From the NCBI GenBank assembly GCA_943736015.1, contig OX031073.1:23277210-23341209 (forward strand): a stretch of 64,000 nucleotides of DNA, given 5' to 3'. Shown one piece after another: positions 4,541 to 62,414 of this stretch; positions within the stretch are counted from its first letter, which is position 1; every line of letters starts with the position of its first letter. The notes beneath the pieces are model-generated. The model saw only the letters and a program-made list of their open reading frames with translations. It made no database searches and had not been told where the DNA came from. Position numbers and translations under genes: made by a program. This DNA is from Tridacna crocea (Eukaryota > Mollusca > Bivalvia > Cardiida > Cardiidae).

Positions 4541-4765
4541 CCCTTTATAAAAAAGTCCTTAGTTTTTACAACCCTGAGAATTTAGAAGCCTTTTGACAAC
4601 ATTGAGAGAAAAGGAGAAAATGCTGGTCCAGCATTTTCTACTTTTCTCACAATGTTTTCTAACCTGCTCTAATTAATTTCAATTTTATAGTTACATTTAT
4701 TTTTTCGTCTGCAAGTGATTTCAGTTTGGACTGGTCGTAAATTTTGTTGTGTGGTAAAGGGTTAA
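4541..4765 (+). mobile_element. Family A MITE, tandem with previous copy
   Basis: Begins CCCTTTATAA directly against the previous copy. The palindrome has lost central bases (GCTGGTCCAGC). The right TTAA is shared with the next element. Confidence 0.8.
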
Positions 4766-4945
4766 TCCTTTTCCTGCTGAATAAGTGGGTGAAACTTTCA
4801 AGTCATTGATAAAAAACTCTAATTTTGGGATAGATAAGTCAGGCAGTGTTGATCCAAGATCAGACTGCACTTTCTATGCAGCCTGATCTTGATTGACATT
4901 GTTCCCAAAAGGTCTTTGAGTCGCCCATAGCATCCAAAGGGTTAA
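4762..4945 (+). mobile_element. Family B MITE in a TTAA chain
   Basis: TTAATCCTTTTCCTGC to GCATCCAAAGGGTTAA with a CAGACTGCA / TGCAGCCTG hairpin. It shares its left TTAA with one A copy and its right TTAA with another. Confidence 0.8.
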
Positions 4946-5178
4946 CCCATTACCAGTCACAATACCTGCTTTTGACGCCCCTGAGATAGAAGCCTTTAGA
5001 AAACATTGTGGGAAAAGGAGAAAGTGCTGGTAACCAGCATTTTCTCCTTTTTCTACAAATGTTTTCTACTCTTCACAAAACAAATTTCAAATTGTCAATC
5101 ACTCTTATTTTGTCGTCTGCAAATACTTTGGATTTGGACAAACCTTATAAAATTTTGTCGATTTGGACAATGAGTTAA
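4942..5178 (+). mobile_element. Family A MITE in a TTAA chain
   Basis: Both TTAA are present; the right arm has an extra A (TTTTTCTACAAATG). The C1 exon lies 150 bp downstream. Confidence 0.85.
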
Positions 5179-5330
5179 AGTCTGTTTATGCCACTGCCAA
5201 TGATTTTCTCATAGTGGGAAAAATATAGATTCTTTTTACCACAATATTTTCCAGGGCAATTCATTAGGGTCTAGAAAATGAGAGATGGTTTACTTTCAAC
5301 ACGTTCACGTCACTTCTTATATAATTTCAG

Positions 5331-5480
5331 GTAGAGGAGCCCAAAAGAATCCGTCACAAGTTTCGTTTTTACCAGTTCCAGCAGCCCCGCGTGTGTTACT
5401 ATTGTAAACAACAGATATGGCACCTCGGCTCAGCATGCACAGTTTGTCGTTATATTTGTCACAGAAAGTGTGAGCTTCAG
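5331..5480 (+). CDS. Internal exon encoding a short (tensin-like) C1 zinc-finger domain
   Basis: The exon is preceded by a good acceptor (ATAATTTCAG) and followed by a consensus donor (GTGAGT). It is 50 codons long and phase 0 at both ends. Translation gives His-X12-Cys-X2-Cys-X10-Cys-X2-Cys-X4-His-X2-Cys, starting at the His of RHKFRF and ending CHRKCELQ; the last zinc-binding Cys of a C1 domain would lie in the next exon. The X10 spacer is shorter than the 13-14 residues of protein kinase C-type C1 domains and equals the spacer I know from tensin-2 (C1-TEN), so a tensin-family adaptor at focal adhesions is the best guess; diacylglycerol binding is not implied. Codon use is richer in C/G than the surrounding intron. 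No PTP, C2, SH2 or PTB exon was recognised in the window, so the gene name is not assigned. Confidence 0.8.
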
Positions 5481-5648
5481 GTGAGTCTGATTTCAAAATT
5501 GTTTTTGCTTAATATGTCCTTAACTCCTTCCATATCATAGACCTGTCCACTGCCATATTTTGGATTATGGCTGAAGTCTCTCTTGATCTTTGAGTGAAAC
5601 TGTATTCTTAGCCATGGAGAACATGCAATTTATTAATTCATTAACCCA

Positions 5649-6002
5649 TTAACCCTTTACTCCATAAGGCATTTCTATGGTATCTCTGATTGACCCTAAA
5701 TAAGAGCAAGGATGAAGCAGTTTTTATATGTATATGACACCTTTTGATAGGATAGAAAACATTGTGACAAAAGGTGAAATTGCTCGTCTAGAGCAATTTC
5801 ACCTTTTGCCACAATGTTTTCCAAAGGCTCCTACAAGCAATGCGTAGAAGTGAGTATCTATGGCACCTTTTGATAGCATAGAAAACATTGTGACAAAAGG
5901 TGAAATTGCTCTAGACGAGCAGTTTCACCTTTTGCCAGAATGATTTCCAAAGGCTCCTACAAGCAATGCGTAGAAATGAGTATCTATGGAGTAAAGGGTT
6001 AA
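5649..6002 (+). mobile_element. Family C MITE with duplicated hairpin
   Basis: TTAACCCTTTACTCC to GGAGTAAAGGGTTAA. A segment of about 120 bp holding the hairpin is present twice (about 5740-5860 and 5867-5995). The hairpin centres are opposite: GCTCGTCTAGAGC, then GCTCTAGACGAGC. Confidence 0.85.
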
Positions 6003-14143: not shown

Positions 14144-14373
14144 TTAACCCAATACCGCACAATCCCTATGTTTTGACGCTTGTGGAAAAGAAGCCTTTTG
14201 AAAACATTGTGGGAAAAGGAGAAAATGCTGGTAACCAGCATTTTCTCCTTTTCCCACAATGTTTTCTACCCTTCATACCTCTAATTTTAAATTTTCAGTC
14301 AGTTTCATTTTGTCGTCTGCAAATGCTTTGGATTTGAACAAGCCTGAAATATTGTTGTTTGGTAATGAGTTAA
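14144..14373 (+). mobile_element. Family A MITE, complete
   Basis: TTAACCCAATACCGC to GGTAATGAGTTAA; perfect palindrome arms. Confidence 0.88.
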
Positions 14374-35002: not shown

Positions 35003-37576
35003 GAAGTTTTCTTTTACCGGCATGCTCTGTATTCTCTGTGGAGAACATTGTCTGTTATCACTTGCTTGTTGTATTTCGTTGCTGCAATCATGCTAAAATT
35101 TGCCACTAAAAAGCCACCTAGATTAAAACAGTCAACAATAAATGAAAGTGAAGGCCAATTATACAGTGGTGAAGGTGAAGGTCGTTTTGTTGGAAATATT
35201 TCAAAATATGGAGATTTATCAAGTGTAGAGGATTCAGTGGATAGTGGGATTAATCAAAGTGTGGATTTTTTAGGTTTTAAACCAAATGTGGATTATGATG
35301 GATTACATGAAAATAAGGAGAATGTTAGTTACCCTGGATACCATTCTAGACCTGTACAATCTCCAATAAAAGAAAAGTGGAAGGCATTTAATGTGAAGTA
35401 TGGAAAAATTGGTGTTGAGAAAGAGATACAAATTCCATTAGAAGTCCCACCCCGAGAGGTTGGAATGTCTAGGAATGGACATGTCTATGAAGGTCAGAGG
35501 TCACACTATAATCCAGGCTATCATGACAACTCAATGACAACAAGACCTGAATCAAATCTGAATCTATACAAGTTCCCAGTATCTAGTGAGTCTAGGGTTT
35601 ATCCAAGAGGGAGTGGTTACCAGTTTTTATCTCCAGACACTCAAGGTCAGATGTCAAGGTCACCTCAACCAGCTCAGAGTTACAGTTCACAAAGACAACA
35701 TTCTTACATGCCAGACAGTATTTCTAGTCACAATGTTAATGTAGATAACTATGGCATTTATGGACAACCATACAGTTTAGATTCTACTGCAAGTCTGTCC
35801 CTTGACTCTGTAAGCACAATTGGTGACCCATCATCCAAAAGTCCATCAGAATATTTGGATTATGATATGTTGATGGAGGACATGCAACCACCAGTAAGGA
35901 GAGGGATAGATAATAAACCACCCACAGTGCCTCATAAACACAGACATGTACATGTAGGGAGAGGGACACATGGGCTCTGTGAGGGCTCAAGTTCACCAAC
36001 ACGCCCAGGATCCACAGAAAGTCACATGATATCATCACTAAGGAAGAGCCCTGGTTATAAAAGTGGGCATCATGTTAGGTGGGGTCCAGGGGTTGTCAAT
36101 AGTGGACAAAAGGAGCCAGAGATACCAGCAGCTCTGCAGACTTCCTCCCCAAGTAAGAAAACTAAGAAGAAAACTTCACTGAGAACATTATTGAATTTAC
36201 CAAAGTTTCCTGTAAGAGATGAAGACTTACCAGACCATGGAAGTGACCTTGATCAAAGGTCAGAAAGTCAAACTCATGCCATAAGCAAACAGAAAAAGAC
36301 TCGAAAACAAACATCTAGTGCTGCAACCAGACCCATGCCAGCCACAGAACTAGCCTGTTTACAGTACAAGAAGGAATTTTCTGCTCCAAAAACTGTTAAT
36401 TTGTCAAATGTCCCATCAACTCTGACGAAAAATGTGCCAAAATTAAACATTACTCGGGCTCATCAGTTTCAGTCTATTTTCTCTTTACCAATCTCAACCC
36501 AGAGTTTCCCATTGCATCATGGGAAACCAGCACAAACCACAGCTATCACACAACCCATCATGCATGTTGGTAAACAAGAATCCCCTCATAAGGGTCAGAT
36601 AAATTCGGTGCGCCCTTTCAGTGTCAATGGACAGACAGATGAAATTCAAGATTATGATAACTGCAGTGAAACGCAGCCACAAATATCAAAACTCATTAGT
36701 GTCAGACAGGGTACCTTGAATGAAACTGGTGTTTTTTCTCCGTCTTCAGTTACAGCCGGCTCTCAATTTAATGTGACAAACTCGCAAAAAGTGCATATTT
36801 TGAATGGATTACAAACGACCAGCCAAAATATCCCTGTCACGTTTGACACATTTGTTACATGGGGGAGACCATCTGAGAAAAATGTTACATTTGATACTTT
36901 TGTTACACTTGGCCGACCATATGCAACCAGCACTCCTGTCCCAAATGGAAGCTATCAAGGATCTGTGCAATATTTAGGTAATACCAGCATTAATCAAGGT
37001 TCCGGAAGTAATTTGTATTACACAACTAGTGCAGCTACTTGTGGAGGACAGATTCCTTTGATTACGCAACCGTTTATGTCAACTAATGTAGTAGGGAGCA
37101 AAACAAAAAGTACAAGTGTTTTAAGACCAACTTCAGTACCAATTGTTTCACATATTGTTCACAAGGACACTAGAGTGCCTTTATTAAGAGACCAAAGGCT
37201 GGAGCAAGGAATGTTGGGTAGGGGTCATGTGAGGTCATCAGGACCTTATGAAATGGATAACAGGAATTATGGGAAGTTGTCATCTCCTCCGTCAACTTTC
37301 ATCACTTGGACTCAAGGCTCTGTTGTACATCCGGATAATGCAAATGTACGTACTTGGCAGTCACATGATCAGATGACATCACATGACACTATAGGTTTCC
37401 ATGGCAACCAGTCAGCTTTTAAGGATAGGGGTACTTACCATGAGCGGGAGAGTCAGGATTATGATGATGACGTCTTCATGAATCTGATGTCCAGTCTTTC
37501 TAGTCCAAGTTCCATGCAGACAGGTCAAGTGAGGCGTAAACTGGACTTTGAAGGAGTTTCTAGGAAACCAGAAACG
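35003..37576 (+). CDS. Very large exon encoding a disordered Ser/Thr/Pro/Gln-rich protein segment
   Basis: One frame is open from just after a TAG at 35000-35002 to a stop at 37610-37612, but a strong donor (ACG|GTATGT) at 37576/37577 on a codon boundary indicates the exon ends there and the last residues before the stop are intronic. The 5' end is unsure: AATAG at 34998-35002 could be an acceptor giving phase 0, or translation could begin at the ATG at 35090 (A at -3), making this an alternative first exon. From that ATG the exon encodes about 829 residues. The first 30 residues before/around the ATG are hydrophobic; the rest is low in hydrophobics with basic Lys-rich patches (KKTKKKTS), many SP/TP sites and a 12-residue duplication, VTFDTFVTWGRP and VTFDTFVTLGRP, about 16 residues apart. 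No folded domain was recognised. It could be the linker region of the same gene as the C1 exon 30 kb upstream; that is inference. Confidence 0.75.
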
Positions 37577-37582
37577 GTATGT
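37577..37582 (+). promoter_or_regulatory. 5' splice site of the large exon
   Basis: GTATGT directly follows codon ACG in frame; the open frame closes 30 bp later, as expected for intron sequence read through. Confidence 0.75.
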
Positions 37583-37768
37583 CATATTAGCTTGGATCCT
37601 CTTACTTTCTAGATCTACTCTCTATCTTCCAAAAGTTTCACTTTTCTGATGACTATCAAATACAATTGAAAATGTTTTTTTTTTTCACTATTGCAAAAAA
37701 GGCCCAGATACTAAATTAGGAATAATTTAACCAGAATATTAGAGGGCAGCTCTCTCAGAAAAAATGGT

Positions 37769-55860: not shown

Positions 55861-56585
55861 GGGTCAAAGGTGACATGTTCTTGATAGCCTACTACCATCT
55901 TCGCAAGCCAAAGCTGATGATTCACTACACTACTCTACCCTTGGCAGATTGAGCTTGATTTTTACATTCCCCTGATACGCTTTTTTATTAGATGCAGCCA
56001 GCTGTAACTGCAACGAATGAAATCGCTCGTAGCATATCGTCTTTGATAAAAATAGAACAAGGTCGCTACCTTTCGTATAGTAGGTAAAAATGGAAACCCA
56101 CGTGGATGTCTGCTTATCTCTTCATGTGTATTCGTAAGTGGTTTGTAAGCGGTGTGTAAAACGATATTTCATTAGCTTTTAGAAATATGATGTAAAGGGG
56201 GGTAATAACAAGCATCCAATAGAGGGCGCATCGCAGAAATCTCAAGATCGGGCTCATTCAGCCAAGGTAAAATCCATGTAGTGATCGTAACCTTGGCTCG
56301 CGAAGATGGCCTACTGCAGGCTTGAATTATTGTGCTTTGCAAAGCTCTTGTTTGTAGTAGGTAGATATCCGTCACCCACAATGTTTTCAATATAGCTATA
56401 GCTATTGACTGCAGGTGCATACATTGTTGTTTTTTTTTGGTATGAATGTTTGTAAAAGTCAAAGGTGACATGTTCTCTATAGCCTCCTACAGGCATGAAT
56501 TGCTCTTGTTGGTGGTAGATAGGTATCCATCACCCACAATGTTTTCAACAGTTATCAGTTGCAGGTGCATACACTGTCTTTTTTG
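55861..56585. repeat. Tandem duplication, first unit split by family M
   Basis: GTCAAAGGTGACATGTTC ... TCACCCACAATGTTTTC ... CAGGTGCATACA occurs twice. The first unit contains the M element; the second is uninterrupted (from about 56458). Confidence 0.8.
55896..56308 (+). mobile_element. Family M MITE with paralogous empty site
   Basis: 413 bp flanked by GCCTACTAC and GCCTACTGC (8 of 9 match). The empty counterpart is GCCTCCTAC at 56482-56490. Confidence 0.87.
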
Positions 56586-56590
56586 TGTAT

Positions 56591-56710
56591 AATCCCCCCA
56601 AATAAACGAGACTTACCTGTAAGTTGATGTTTGGTTGGGATTCTATGTAGTCATATAACAACTGGAGGGATCAAATGAGATGTGCACGCAGCCCAGCCGA
56701 GACTTTCAGT
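56591..56710 (-). repeat. DIRS 3' inverted terminal repeat with outer extension
   Basis: Outer 87 bp pair with the internal complementary region; bases 56671-56710 match the 5' ITR perfectly in inverse orientation. Confidence 0.9.
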
Positions 56711-56815
56711 ATTCAAAGCGTCAGGGAATTTCTTATTGAACTGAACTAATTATGGACTAGGAAGTTTGAACATGTCACACATACTCTGTGGGAGGGATTA
56801 CCATGAAAGGGTGGG

Positions 56816-56937
56816 CATTTGATCCCTCCAGTTGTTATATGACTACATAGAATCCCAACCAAACATCAACTTACAGGTAAGTCTCGTTTATTTGGGGGGA
56901 TTCTATTACGTCATACAACTTCCGGTCTCAAATGAGA
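56816..56937 (-). repeat. DIRS internal complementary region (ICR)
   Basis: Composite of inverse copies of the left (87 bp) and right (38 bp) element ends meeting at ATT, 56900-56902. In DIRS models this acts as template for joining the ends into a circle. Confidence 0.9.
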
Positions 56938-56997
56938 CTTCAAAGCAGTCAATAAGAAATTACAAGAACTGTGCAGGAAAGGAATTACTCGCATACC

Positions 56998-58254
56998 TTA
57001 CTGTAAAGAAGTGCTCTCATTTAGAACATTTGAATCATATGTGTCATCCATTATTGGTTTATTATAGAATATTGCAAATGTTTGTTCTGAGCTCCAACCA
57101 GCTACTCTCATAATTTCTTGAGCTGGAACCCCAGCTGATTTAGCTCTAGATGATGAAGCACCTCTAATACTATGGGAACTGAACTTATGCACATCTATTC
57201 CTGAATTGAACATGACTTGTTTCAACCATCTGCTTATAGTACTAGATGTGACGAATCTATAAGGTTTGATGTAACTGATGAAAAGTCTTTTCTCAGTTTT
57301 ACGTAATGGTTCAGTCTTCTTTATATACACTTGTAATGTAGTATAAACACAAAGTCTCCTATCTGGAGTATACTTTTTAAGTTTTAACACTGGATTAACT
57401 CTACCCCTCCTGGACTGCTTTAGCAAATCACAGTACTTAAGAACATAGGAATCTGAATCTTTCCTGAGATCAGATAAAGTTATTAAACTTAGTGAATGTG
57501 AACGACTTGCCTGAGTCAAAGCTATTAACATAGCTAATTTATACGATAACAGTTTTAAAGACAAAGTTTCTGTTGGTGACAACTGTTGTAGGTAAGACAA
57601 CACCATAGAAACATCCCAAGTTTCACTATATTTGCATTTTGGAGGACACAAATTATGAATTCCTGTCATGTATCTAATAACTAACGGATGAGATCCAGCA
57701 GAGAAGTTGTCAAACGTAACACACATGGAAGACAGGGCACTACGTGCTGTATTCAAAGTGTCATATCTACAACCAGATTCATACAGTGTAGTAAGGAACT
57801 CAATAACATAGCCTACAGATACTTGAAATGGACTAACTTCCCTTTGATGACAGAATGCCACCCATTTGTTGATGTAGGAGGAATATTGCTTTCTGGTAGA
57901 CTTTCTCCATGACGCCATAATGATATCGGTAGACTTTTTCGAAATTCCTCTGCTTTCAAAGGATCTCCTGACAAACGACATGCCATCAACTGTAGTTTGT
58001 TGGTGAGTGGATGAACTTTGTCTGTCTGAATGATAGATAAGGTGCCTGGTTTGACTTTTATCACAATTGGAATGTCTATCAGTAGATCCAGAACAGCCGG
58101 ATACCAATTCTGTGTTACCCACAAAGGTGTCACCAAAATCAACTCTGCTTTGTCTTCCCTCAATTTCTGTACAGTTTGTCCTATCAAACTGAAAGGAGGA
58201 AAGGCATAGATAAGTGTATATGAAGACCAGTTTACAGAAAAGGCATTTACACAT
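56998..58254 (-). CDS. DIRS tyrosine recombinase
   Basis: 418 codons from the first start-like codon at 58254; internal ATGs at 57981 (MSFVRR) and 57918 (MASWRK) are better candidates, the latter just ahead of the usual SAM-like N-terminal domain (WRKSTRKQY...W..FC). Catalytic residues are visible, numbered from 58254: Arg 251 (TQASRSHSL), His 361 and Arg 364 (HSIRG), Trp 387 (GWSS) and nucleophile Tyr 397 (FAIFYNKP). The order R...HxxR...W...Y is that of DIRS/Crypton recombinases. The enzyme joins the circular DNA copy to the target without target duplication. The frame overlaps the RT ORF by up to 442 bp in another frame; how it is started is not evident. Confidence 0.93.
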   Translation of the reverse strand: MCKCLFCKLVFIYTYLCLSSFQFDRTNCTEIEGRQSRVDFGDTFVGNTELVSGCSGSTDRHSNCDKSQTRHLIYHSDRQSSSTHQQTTVDGMSFVRRSFESRGISKKSTDIIMASWRKSTRKQYSSYINKWVAFCHQREVSPFQVSVGYVIEFLTTLYESGCRYDTLNTARSALSSMCVTFDNFSAGSHPLVIRYMTGIHNLCPPKCKYSETWDVSMVLSYLQQLSPTETLSLKLLSYKLAMLIALTQASRSHSLSLITLSDLRKDSDSYVLKYCDLLKQSRRGRVNPVLKLKKYTPDRRLCVYTTLQVYIKKTEPLRKTEKRLFISYIKPYRFVTSSTISRWLKQVMFNSGIDVHKFSSHSIRGASSSRAKSAGVPAQEIMRVAGWSSEQTFAIFYNKPIMDDTYDSNVLNESTSLQ

Positions 58255-59887
58255 TCAGCCTCTGGATCTGGCTTCCATGAAACAAACCGATTAACTTGTT
58301 TGTTAAGCCTGGAAGCAAACATGTCTATCTCAGGCAAACCAAACAATCGGACCAATTCCTCGAACACTGATTTATTAAGGTACCATTCAACATTTTCATT
58401 GAAATTTCTGGACTCATAGTCAGCAGTATTTTCAGAACCAGGAATGTGTACGGCAGAGAGCCAAATATGTCTTTCTGCACACCAAAACCATATCTCTCTA
58501 ACAATGGTATTACAAGTGTCTGACTTAATACCTCCCATATTATTTACATACGATACTGCACAGGTATTATCACACTGAACTTGAACATGCAGGTTCTTAA
58601 AGCCTAAACAAAATGACTTGACTGCATGGCAAATAGCCAAGCTTTCTAAAACATTAATGTGGAACTCAATCTCTGTATTATTCCAACGGCCTCCTATTGT
58701 AGCCCCATTACAAACAGCACCCCAGCCTTCCAGACTAGCGTCCGTGCTTATAATGAGACCAGGATTGCCATGTGAAATATCTCTTTTCTGGATATGCAAA
58801 TTATCAATCCACCATTCTAAATCAGTTTTCATTTCTGTAGAAATTGGCATTACACTATCATACTGTCCTTTGTTAATCTTAAGTGCCTCAATCTTCCCTT
58901 TTTCTAGAGATCTGTAGTACAAAGGACCAAGTTCAACAGCTGAAAATGATGAAACCATCAAACCAACAACTCTTGCTACATACTGAATTTTTGCTTTATC
59001 CATTTTAAGCAACATTTTGCATTCATAGACAAGATTTTTCACTTTGCTTTCTGGCAACGTAACAATCATTTTCACTGAATCAATATCATTCCCTAGAAAT
59101 GTGATTTTTGTGCAAGGAATGAGAACAGACTTATCTGGGTGAATCATGAACCCAACTTTTTCCATCAATTGAACAGTGTCTTCTACATTTTGTTTGCAAT
59201 CGAAATTAGTATCACCCATGAGAATCGAGTCATCTATGTAGCCAGAGTTAATATGACCCATATTACGCAGAGACGCGTAAACTGGTTTCATCAATTTCGT
59301 AAATATCCGCGGAGCACAAGAGATCCCATTAGGCAAACAAACATACTGGTAGATAGTACCCAAATGCTCAAATCTAAGTTTAATTTGATGTTCTTCAGCT
59401 ATAGGTACTGAATAATAAGCATGTCTAAGATCTACAGATGCAAAAAATGTATTTGGTTTGACAAGTTTTAAAGCAGCTTCAAATGTGTCCATTTTAAAAT
59501 GGTGATAAACAATACTTTTGTTCAATTCTTTTAAATTTAAGATCATTCTGTATTCACCATTCTTTTTCCTCAATAAGAAAATTGGAGAAATAAATTCATC
59601 AGGGTGGTGATCAACTTCAATAATGATTTTCATTTGAATCATTTTTTGAATTTCCTGATCAACAATTTTACTTTCTTCTTCATTGAAATTATTCTGAAAA
59701 CATCTGTGATTAACAGGGTTAACCCCAGAAAAGAACTCAATATGTAAATGTTGTACACAATCCAAAATATTGTGATCAGATGTAATATTTCTCCAATTTT
59801 CAATGAAGTTCTTTATTCTACCAGCAGTGAATGCATTACTCACCGAAACATCTACTTCTTGTACCCCGCTTTCGGGTTTTTTGCCAT
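57813..59887 (-). CDS. DIRS reverse transcriptase - RNase H - methyltransferase-like polyprotein
   Basis: The frame is open from the frameshift site; the first conventional start-like codon is a GTG at 59843, from which 676 residues follow. Counting from that GTG: RT fingers/palm with FASVDL (catalytic Asp 138), LPNGISCAP (170-178) and the YIDD active-site box (202-205); RNase H with Asp 368 (STDAS), Glu 400, Asp 425 (CDN) and the HIPGSENTAD box ending at Asp 475; then a region with IDMFASR (about 506-512) and AFPPF (547-551) that matches the adenine-methyltransferase-like domain typical of DIRS1-type elements. All catalytic residues of RT and RNase H are present and there is no internal stop. 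The last 442 bp overlap the recombinase frame. Its product copies element RNA into circular DNA; it is likely made as a gag-pol fusion. Confidence 0.93.
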
Positions 59888-61003
59888 GGTAGTGGGAGTC
59901 TCAGATGGTCTGGAATAATTACCACGACCCCGACCTCTTGAAGAACCACGTCTTCCACCTCTTCGTCGATAAAAACCTCTGCCCTGGGTTTGCTGATTAC
60001 GACCTATGTCTTTGCCAAGTTTACTCAAATCTTGAATATCACGGACATTCTTATTGATATCATCTCCATACAAGTTATCAGTATAGGGCAAAGATGATGA
60101 AGTCAGTGGGTAGAAACGTGGATCCAAATCAGATCTATGACATTCTTTGCGTTTGTTGTTAATTAGTTTGTATGACTGACCAAGTAAGGCTAAAGCATTT
60201 GTACACCATTCCATAGACTGAGAATCTAATGCTTCATTCTCCTTGTCAAGAAGCTTGGCCAAATTAACAGAAGCCTTCACAAGAACATTTTGCAAAGTCT
60301 GGAACTTAACATCTTCTGTTTGGGTTTGAGGCTTTAAGAGTCGCCAAATACAAGAGTTAACTTTTGTTTTTACCAGCGCTTCACAATTTTGTGGTCTGTG
60401 AATGTCTTTCATCATTTCTGTCAAAGTTTCCTCTGGAATGCCATTCCTAAAAGAACTATTAATGAATGCAGCGAGATTATCATTGATCTCATGGTCACAT
60501 TTCTCTGCTATCTGATATTTATCACATAAGTCTTTAAATTTATCATTCTCAAGACAAGACTTCTTCTGTGGAGGCTCTGACGATACAGAATCATCCTCAT
60601 ACTGAGTGTTGGTATAGCTATATTCATCATGCTCCGAGTACTGATAAGAACTATACGGTGGCTCATTTTCTTGGTTCTCATAAGTTTCGCACTCATAGAG
60701 TTCATCAACCCTCTTGGCCAGTGTTTCAAGCTTAGACCCCTGTTTATTGAATTTATTATTCAGTTCTTTTAAAATAAGCAAAACTTCACTGTTAATATTT
60801 CCGGGTGGTACCGGTACAGCGACCTTCGTCGAAGAGGCCCCCGGTGCTTTTGTTTGCTTACGTGACTCTGTAGAGCCAGAAACAGACGAGGAATCAAGTT
60901 TACTTGTCGGCTGGCTTTGTTTTTCGCCGAGCTTTCCAACGTCCTTCATATTGCTTGCTGTCGAAGAGACAACTTTCTTGGCTTGCACTTCGGCATCCGC
61001 CAT
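59852..61003 (-). CDS. DIRS ORF1, gag-like RNA-binding protein
   Basis: The 383-residue frame starts at the ATG at 61003 (A at -3, G at +4, encoding MADAEVQ); the frame is open further upstream to 61084 without another ATG. It has a Ser/Thr/Lys-rich N-terminus, a Leu-rich likely coiled coil at about residues 70-103, an acidic Tyr/Glu-rich stretch at about 104-145, a helical middle region, and an Arg/Gly-rich tail (about 341-365, RRRGGRRG, SRGRGRG) in place of zinc knuckles. This is the usual place and make-up of the DIRS capsid-like protein, which packages element RNA. The stop TAG is at 59854-59852. Eight codons before it lies the slippery heptamer at 59882-59876, so a fraction of product is probably extended into the RT frame. 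Confidence 0.8.
   Translation of the reverse strand: MADAEVQAKKVVSSTASNMKDVGKLGEKQSQPTSKLDSSSVSGSTESRKQTKAPGASSTKVAVPVPPGNINSEVLLILKELNNKFNKQGSKLETLAKRVDELYECETYENQENEPPYSSYQYSEHDEYSYTNTQYEDDSVSSEPPQKKSCLENDKFKDLCDKYQIAEKCDHEINDNLAAFINSSFRNGIPEETLTEMMKDIHRPQNCEALVKTKVNSCIWRLLKPQTQTEDVKFQTLQNVLVKASVNLAKLLDKENEALDSQSMEWCTNALALLGQSYKLINNKRKECHRSDLDPRFYPLTSSSLPYTDNLYGDDINKNVRDIQDLSKLGKDIGRNQQTQGRGFYRRRGGRRGSSRGRGRGNYSRPSETPTTMAKNPKAGYKK
59876..59882 (-). promoter_or_regulatory. Putative -1 ribosomal frameshift site A AAA AAC
   Basis: In the gag frame the codons are GCA AAA AAC, the canonical X XXY YYZ slippery heptamer. The -1 frame is open from here straight into the RT ORF, which has no ATG before its RT domain. 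A CCGAAA/TTTCGG stem can form immediately downstream (0 nt spacer, 21-nt loop), although such spacing is shorter than typical. Confidence 0.7.
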
Positions 61004-61245
61004 ATTGGAAACACCACGTGTTTGAATCTCAAAACCAGAAAAGTTAGAAGTTGTTTCAGCGAAACAACAAATAAATGACTGCAAAAATTACAGATATACT
61101 GTAAAAAGAAATAAATTCGATTTGGCATAACCAAAAACCGAACGAGAAAAAGACAGACAACTACGTTATCTGAAGTACGCTTCGAGATTAAATATTCTCG
61201 GCTCCTATGCGAACCACGTCCGCACAGTACGGAAAACAATAGCGC

Positions 61246-61313
61246 ACTGAAAGTCTCGGCTGGGCTGCGTGCACATCTCATTTGAGACCGGAAGTTGTAT
61301 GACGTAATAGAAT
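61246..61313 (-). repeat. DIRS 5' inverted terminal repeat
   Basis: The inner 40 bp match the 3' ITR and the outer 38 bp match the ICR. It presumably carries the promoter, about 240 bp upstream of the gag ATG. Confidence 0.9.
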
Positions 61314-61420
61314 TGTTTGTTAAACTCTAAACAAATAAATATTGAATCTTCCCTTTGATCTCGGCAGCAAAAGACAATGTTATCATCACATGTAAATTTT
61401 TTTTCCCTCATACATCAGAC

Positions 61421-62207: not shown

Positions 62208-62414
62208 CTCTTTACCACACTAGAAAATTTTAGACTGGTCCAAATTGAAAGCATTTGCACAAGACAAAATAAAACTGACTGAAAATTTTAAATTCGTGTT
62301 GTGAAGGGTAGAAAACATTGTGGGAAAAGGAGAAAATGCTGGTTACCAGCATTTTCTCCTTTTCCCACAATGTTTTCTAAAGGCTTAAGTAGGGATTGTG
62401 TGGTAATGGGTTAA
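62204..62414 (-). mobile_element. Family A MITE
   Basis: TTAACTCTTTACCACAC to GGTAATGGGTTAA; a second right end (GGATTGTGTGGTAAAGG) follows to 62440. Confidence 0.85.

Follow-up and report, generated by a model that had tools for sequence, protein, structure and literature searches.

A full-length, recently mobile DIRS1-like retrotransposon of Tridacna crocea with a predicted frameshift site and a predicted intron

Results and discussion

A full-length DIRS1-like retrotransposon was found at positions 56591-61313 of a window of 64,000 nucleotides from the bivalve Tridacna crocea (assembly GCA_943736015.1, contig OX031073.1, positions 23,277,210 to 23,341,209); the window is the whole stretch of DNA that was analysed. 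It adds one more ordinary member to a known kind of element, and the data support an intact, young and recently mobile copy. We favour, with a probability of about 0.75, a recently active element in which a fusion of Gag with the reverse transcriptase (RT) would be made from unspliced RNA and a fusion of Gag with the tyrosine recombinase (YR) from spliced RNA, both by way of a -1 ribosomal slip.

Identity, frames and domains

The element, which represents family A, is 4723 nt long, has its coding strand on the minus strand, and carries gag, RT-RNase H-methyltransferase and YR frames. All three were open, as a sequence-only reading of this DNA had claimed: gag at 59852-61003 (383 amino acids, with an RG-rich C-terminus), the RT-RNase H-methyltransferase frame at 57813-59900, and YR at 56998-58254 with an ATG at 58254, overlapping the RT frame by about 440 nt. 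The portion of YR predicted to be exon 2 (56998-58188, minus strand, 396 amino acids) was identified as a tyrosine recombinase by Pfam, by alignment and by its YR profile, which matched the C-terminal part of Cre with an E value of 1.3e-4.

In the Pfam search, RVT_1 in the RT frame (E 2.8e-20) and Phage_integrase in YR (E 4.4e-7) scored above the cut-off, while the Dam methyltransferase domain (E 7.7e-6; 26.1 bits, where the cut-off is 28.1 bits) and RT_RNaseH (E 0.026) stayed below the curated cut-offs. The RT, RNase H and methyltransferase domains lay together in one frame in the order expected of DIRS1-like elements. No Pfam family reached the cut-off in gag, and an Rfam scan of 56500-61400 returned nothing at the gathering score. 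The catalytic residues were retained, as had been read from the letters: the RT motif was YIDD, and R229, K257, H339, R342, W365 and Y375 of YR (numbered from predicted exon 2), which we take to be the active-site residues, were invariant in all eight aligned sequences.

Termini and internal complementary region

The two ends are repeated in inverted form in an internal complementary region (ICR). The right terminus (56591-56677) is the reverse complement of the right ICR (56816-56902) at 87 of 87 positions, and the left terminus (61276-61313) is the reverse complement of the left ICR (56900-56937) at 38 of 38; the two ICRs share the 3-bp AAT circular junction at 56900-56902. The conserved inverted terminal repeats (ITRs), at 61246-61285 on the left and 56671-56710 on the right, matched at 40 of 40 positions, so that the perfect repeats of 87, 40 and 38 bp reported earlier stand. 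We read the right extension as about 56591-56639. All of these features were assigned to the minus strand, and the plus strand of the element starts and ends with AAT. Inverted termini with two ICRs sharing a 3-bp junction are the arrangement of DIRS1-like elements; the split direct repeats of PAT-like and Ngaro elements were not present, since the termini are inverted and no long direct repeat joins the ends. Together with the RT-RNase H-methyltransferase and YR frames, this is the DIRS1-like layout given in PMC3266345, in agreement with the identification of an intact DIRS-like element from the sequence.

The right extension contains a splice-donor-like sequence, CAGGTAAGT, on the minus strand at 56611-56619 (reading 56619-56611), and this was the sole donor scoring at least 8 of 9 positions across the whole element. 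In the coding sense GGTAAG was found in the right extension of most families, and 24 of 29 loci had its complement CTTACC in their ICR block, the others being L033, L034, L038, L040 and L043. This donor-like sequence at the element end is unexplained. By eye the right extension looked like a strong palindrome; this candidate was dropped, as fewer than 10 of 300 shuffles scored as high in just 3 of 20 families. A short direct repeat, AAACGAGACTT / AAATGAGACTT at 56604-56614 and 56930-56940, has one copy in the right end and the other on the outer edge of the left ICR, and was seen in several families; it might have a role in strand transfer.

Copies, recent movement and integration sites

The genome searched comprised 1.05 Gb in 31 contigs, and the copy counts are lower bounds. 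The sequence-only reading had looked to other copies with the same ends, and at least four full-length family A copies were present, the window copy and three others, with the same ends and different flanks at unrelated sites, an agreement well outside what chance would give. Over 4723 positions, the other three showed 11, 21 and 53 changes from the window copy (0.23%, 0.44% and 1.1%, respectively). All frames were open in three of the four copies, L002 having a stop in RT, and partial copies (L005-L007) were found as well. Silent and replacing changes in the most-changed copy numbered 12 and 3 in gag, 8 and 8 in the RT-only part, and 5 and 6 in the YR-only part, respectively; three further changes in the RT/YR overlap were silent in RT and not in YR.

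Recent movement had been deduced from the perfect identity of ICR and ends. The movement itself is supported by the divergence of 0.23-1.1% among copies, which is the better evidence for it. The ICR-to-end repeats were perfect in all four full-length copies, including L004, which carries the 53 differences and still had 0 of 87 and 0 of 38 mismatches. ICR-to-end identity is therefore a weak clock and was rejected as such: the repeats were equally perfect in a copy with 11 differences and in one with 53.

In the RT search, 66 of 2049 first-look candidates were scored. Because their RT identities ranged from 100% down to 37%, DIRS-type elements appear to be numerous and varied in this genome. 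L042, L043 and their relatives, with 37% RT identity, had many near-identical copies, with junction halves at ten places, an apparent recent burst.

Integration sites were examined at 28 loci with mapped ends, of which L029, L031 and L032 were set aside before counting. AAT stood at both ends in 24 of the 25 scored loci, the exception being L018. The bases preceding AAT favoured TAT, with A at -2 in 21 of 24 and T at -1 in 20 of 24, and the flanks were otherwise unrelated.

Predicted frameshift between gag and RT

The RT frame begins within that of gag and is in -1 relative to it. A slippery heptamer, A_AAA_AAC, is located at 59876-59882 on the minus strand, in gag phase within the gag/RT overlap, and is the predicted site of -1 frameshifting. 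Ten families whose gag frame reaches RT were counted; L033, L035 and L041, with no gag in reach, were left out. A heptamer of the form X_XXY_YYZ in gag phase was found within the overlap in 10 of 10: AAAAAAC in families A-E and L038, CCCAAAC in L034, L038, L040 and L043, AAATTTC in L040, and TTTTTTA in L036, where it is followed by an 8-bp GC-rich stem. Phased heptamers occurred 19 times in the 3967 codons of the rest of gag, a rate that predicts about 1.2 for the 251 codons of the overlaps. A phased heptamer in the gag/pol overlap with pol in -1, as here, is the arrangement of retroelements that use -1 frameshifting.

Predicted intron between gag and YR

The predicted intron of the window copy spans 58189-59843 on the minus strand (1655 nt), from the donor TCG GTGAGT at 59843 to the acceptor CCTTTCCTCCTTTCAG ending at 58189, in phase 0 on both sides. 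Twelve loci, taken as 11 families, were compared. Nine of the 11 had both a phase-0 donor close to the gag stop and a phase-0 acceptor close to where the YR frame starts; these nine were chosen for having the motif, and the meaningful comparison is with its rate elsewhere and with the two families that do not have it. In these nine families the donor was GTRAGY in RT phase 0, located 2-20 nt past the gag stop wherever that stop was resolved: TCG GTGAGT, AAG GTGAGT, GAG GTGAGT and AAG GTGAGC in families A, B, C and D, respectively, GAG GTAAGC in L034, ACA GTAAGT in L036/L037, AAT GTAAGT in L038 and CAG GTAAGC in L043. L033, in which the gag stop was not resolved, had ACT GTAAGT. The acceptor was pyrimidine-rich, in phase 0 of the YR frame and at or near its start. 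In A-D, L033 and L036 it coincided with the methyltransferase FPPF motif or the equivalent of that motif, and in L034, L038 and L043 it lay roughly 100-150 nt further on. The nine predicted introns measured 1652-1787 nt, and the frame is preserved across every one of the joins.

The Val-Ser pair at the donor is encoded by GTR-AGY, and 24 of the 25 other Val-Ser pairs in the predicted introns are encoded otherwise. Elsewhere in the nine predicted introns (about 15 kb) GTRAGY occurred twice and strong acceptors five times. When RT was shuffled synonymously, donor and acceptor arose together in 0.7-6.7% of shuffles per family, and a YR frame open past the acceptor arose in at most 0.03% (eight of nine rows informative, the L036 copy being uninformative because of an early RT stop); the acceptor cut-off was 12 of 15 pyrimidines, which the L043 acceptor, with 11 of 15, would miss. 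Downstream of the donor, the RT frame of L038 has no ATG until after YxDD.

Several observations weigh against the reading that we favour. The donor of family E, CAA GTATGT, is weaker, and the decayed L040 lacks one altogether; among the copies of family C, the GAGGTGAGT donor is missing from L021 and L023 and out of phase with the open frame in L019. The conservation of the donor Val-Ser pair may partly reflect protein constraint, and, as the families are related, multiplying their probabilities would not be valid. Searches of the genome for an intron-less copy of A, B or L043 found none; this would be expected if only unspliced RNA is copied, yet it gives splicing no support. An empty site for the window copy was not recovered either, as the joined flanks matched just their own two sides.

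The strongest competing explanation is that no splicing occurs and that YR is translated from its own start, by reinitiation or at an internal ATG such as that at 58254, the splice-like sites being by-products of coding. We consider this improbable, although the YR frame of the window copy does begin with that ATG, YR ATGs precede the core-binding part in A, B and L033 (in frame in A and B), and the literature searched, in its accessible parts, gives separate or overlapping open reading frames (ORFs) with no splicing. In 6 of 10 rows (D, L034, L036, L037, L038 and L043), however, the first ATG falls past the start of the core-binding motif, in L036/L037 as far as residue 329 of 394 after the acceptor. 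The YR frame of L043 closes exactly at the acceptor, and the donor codons are held as GTR-AGY, compared with 1 in 25 Val-Ser pairs elsewhere. A second frameshift in the RT/YR overlap is a far poorer candidate: the YR frame is indeed -1 to RT, and phased heptamers occur in this overlap in C, D, L033, L034 and L038, but they stand at differing places, and none is phased in A, B, L037 or L043. Splicing is favoured because YR is often without a usable ATG and because no RT/YR heptamer is common to the families; neither own-start translation nor a second frameshift would explain YR in all families, whereas splicing could do so in nine.

Proposed expression and life cycle

Under the combined frameshift and splicing reading, ribosomes on the element RNA would make Gag, and a fraction would slip by -1 at A_AAA_AAC. 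On unspliced RNA the slipped ribosomes would read on into RT-RNase H-methyltransferase, and on RNA from which 59843-58189 had been removed they would read on in phase into YR. In the published model the RNA would then be reverse transcribed, the ICR would restore both ends and circularise the element by joining them at the AAT junction; YR would recombine the circle into a genomic AAT with no target duplication. The fuller proposal, one -1 site serving two alternative downstream proteins chosen by splicing, plus an ICR that serves both ends as an inherited master copy, has in our judgement an even chance of being correct.

If it is correct, the three ORFs usually drawn would be one frameshifted, alternatively spliced gene, in this animal at least, and a swap of ICR between families would convert both termini at once. 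The expression of RT and YR in DIRS elements, and the upkeep of their ends by the ICR, rest largely on models. The many divergent and often intact families in this genome make the frameshift, intron and ICR hypotheses precisely and cheaply testable with RNA reads.

ICR and ends across families

Of 24 further loci scanned, 19 had a right-ICR/right-end hairpin of 68-94 nt, perfect or near-perfect; it was not seen in L039, L042, L046, L047 and L056, several of which are decayed or shortened. Family A was compared with five representatives (B, C, D and two copies of E). The four ICR-matched pieces were 76-100% identical to those of family A at the nucleotide level, versus 43-60% in the YR-only part, 31-66% in RT (31% in a copy with deletions) and 44-48% in gag. 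The inner ITR parts adjoining these pieces were 43-58% alike between families, and the two ITR copies within one element were near-perfect partners (40/40 in the window copy, 109/109 in L034, 113/114 in L038 and 120/121 in L040). These values indicate that it is sequence that is conserved in the ICR-matched ends and mainly pairing in the inner ITR parts, a pattern that restoration of the ends from the ICR would be expected to produce.

Families A and B (represented by L010) differed at only 3 of 122 ICR positions, versus 15 for A against each of C, D and E and 17 for B against each of them, plus gaps. RT amino-acid identity was similar for all pairs (A-B 58%, A-C 60%, A-D 57%, A-E 53% and B-C 61%), and the 33 nt adjoining the 87-nt right end were just 48% alike between A and B. 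One family may have taken the ICR of the other, for example by template switching, after which both ends would have been rewritten from it; we hold the odds of such an exchange to be evenly balanced. The counter-reading is that tight functional constraint alone keeps the two alike, and this constraint is real, as all families keep the ICR-matched pieces at 76-100% identity to A. In the RT tree, which contains families of this genome only, B grouped with C (support 91/93, not starred), and forcing A and B together gave p 0.0445; forcing B and C together in the ICR tree gave p 0.058, so that both tests were borderline. No chimeric copy was seen. The pattern is suggestive of exchange between families, short of proof.

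Comparison with known elements

PMC3266345, the source for the comparisons below unless another is named, describes DIRS1-like elements that share their ends, junction and repeat arrangement with the present one. Four of its five mollusc elements are nearest in sizes: AcaDIRS1/2 of Aplysia californica and LgDIRS1/3 of Lottia gigantea (Table 3) start and end with ATT and have an AAT junction, as here. Their right extension is 48-49 (about 49 here), their conserved ITR 31-36 (40 here), their ICRs 39-45 and 86-88 (38 and 87 here) and their length 4680-5808 (4723 here). They are listed without a long ORF overlap, whereas here YR and RT overlap by about 440 nt. DIRS-1 of Dictyostelium discoideum likewise has gag, YR, RT-RNase H-methyltransferase, inverted ends and an ICR, but differs in its TTA ends, TAA junction, 304-bp conserved ITR and listed long ORF overlap. 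Its ITRs act as promoters in both directions (PMC4482531). PAT-like and Ngaro elements share RT, RNase H and a tyrosine recombinase with this element; PAT has split direct repeats in place of inverted ends and an ICR, and Ngaro has no methyltransferase, unlike the present element with its Dam-like domain (PMC3266345).

In PMC3266345 the terms "splic" and "intron" were absent and "frameshift" was used for mutations only. In the accessible literature searched, neither splicing nor frameshifting was described as a means of expressing DIRS elements; the search did not extend to subscription papers or Repbase notes, where such an account may be in print. Relatives outside this genome were not confirmed in the viral contigs or genome contigs collections searched, and the plasmid collection gave one weak RT match, from Wolbachia, with 25.5% identity over 24% of the query.

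Other features of the window

The window also contains a very dense dispersed palindromic repeat. A 29-base motif, AACATTGTGGGAAAAGGAGAAAATGCTGG, occurred 112 times with at most 3 mismatches between 162 and 62828, with none expected in shuffles. Its copies were mostly arranged as head-to-head pairs forming near-perfect hairpins, for example at 693-753, 14203-14263 and 62314-62374. On the plus strand, a stop-to-stop frame of 869 residues, rich in Ser and Pro and with no Pfam match at 0.01, was found at 35003-37612.

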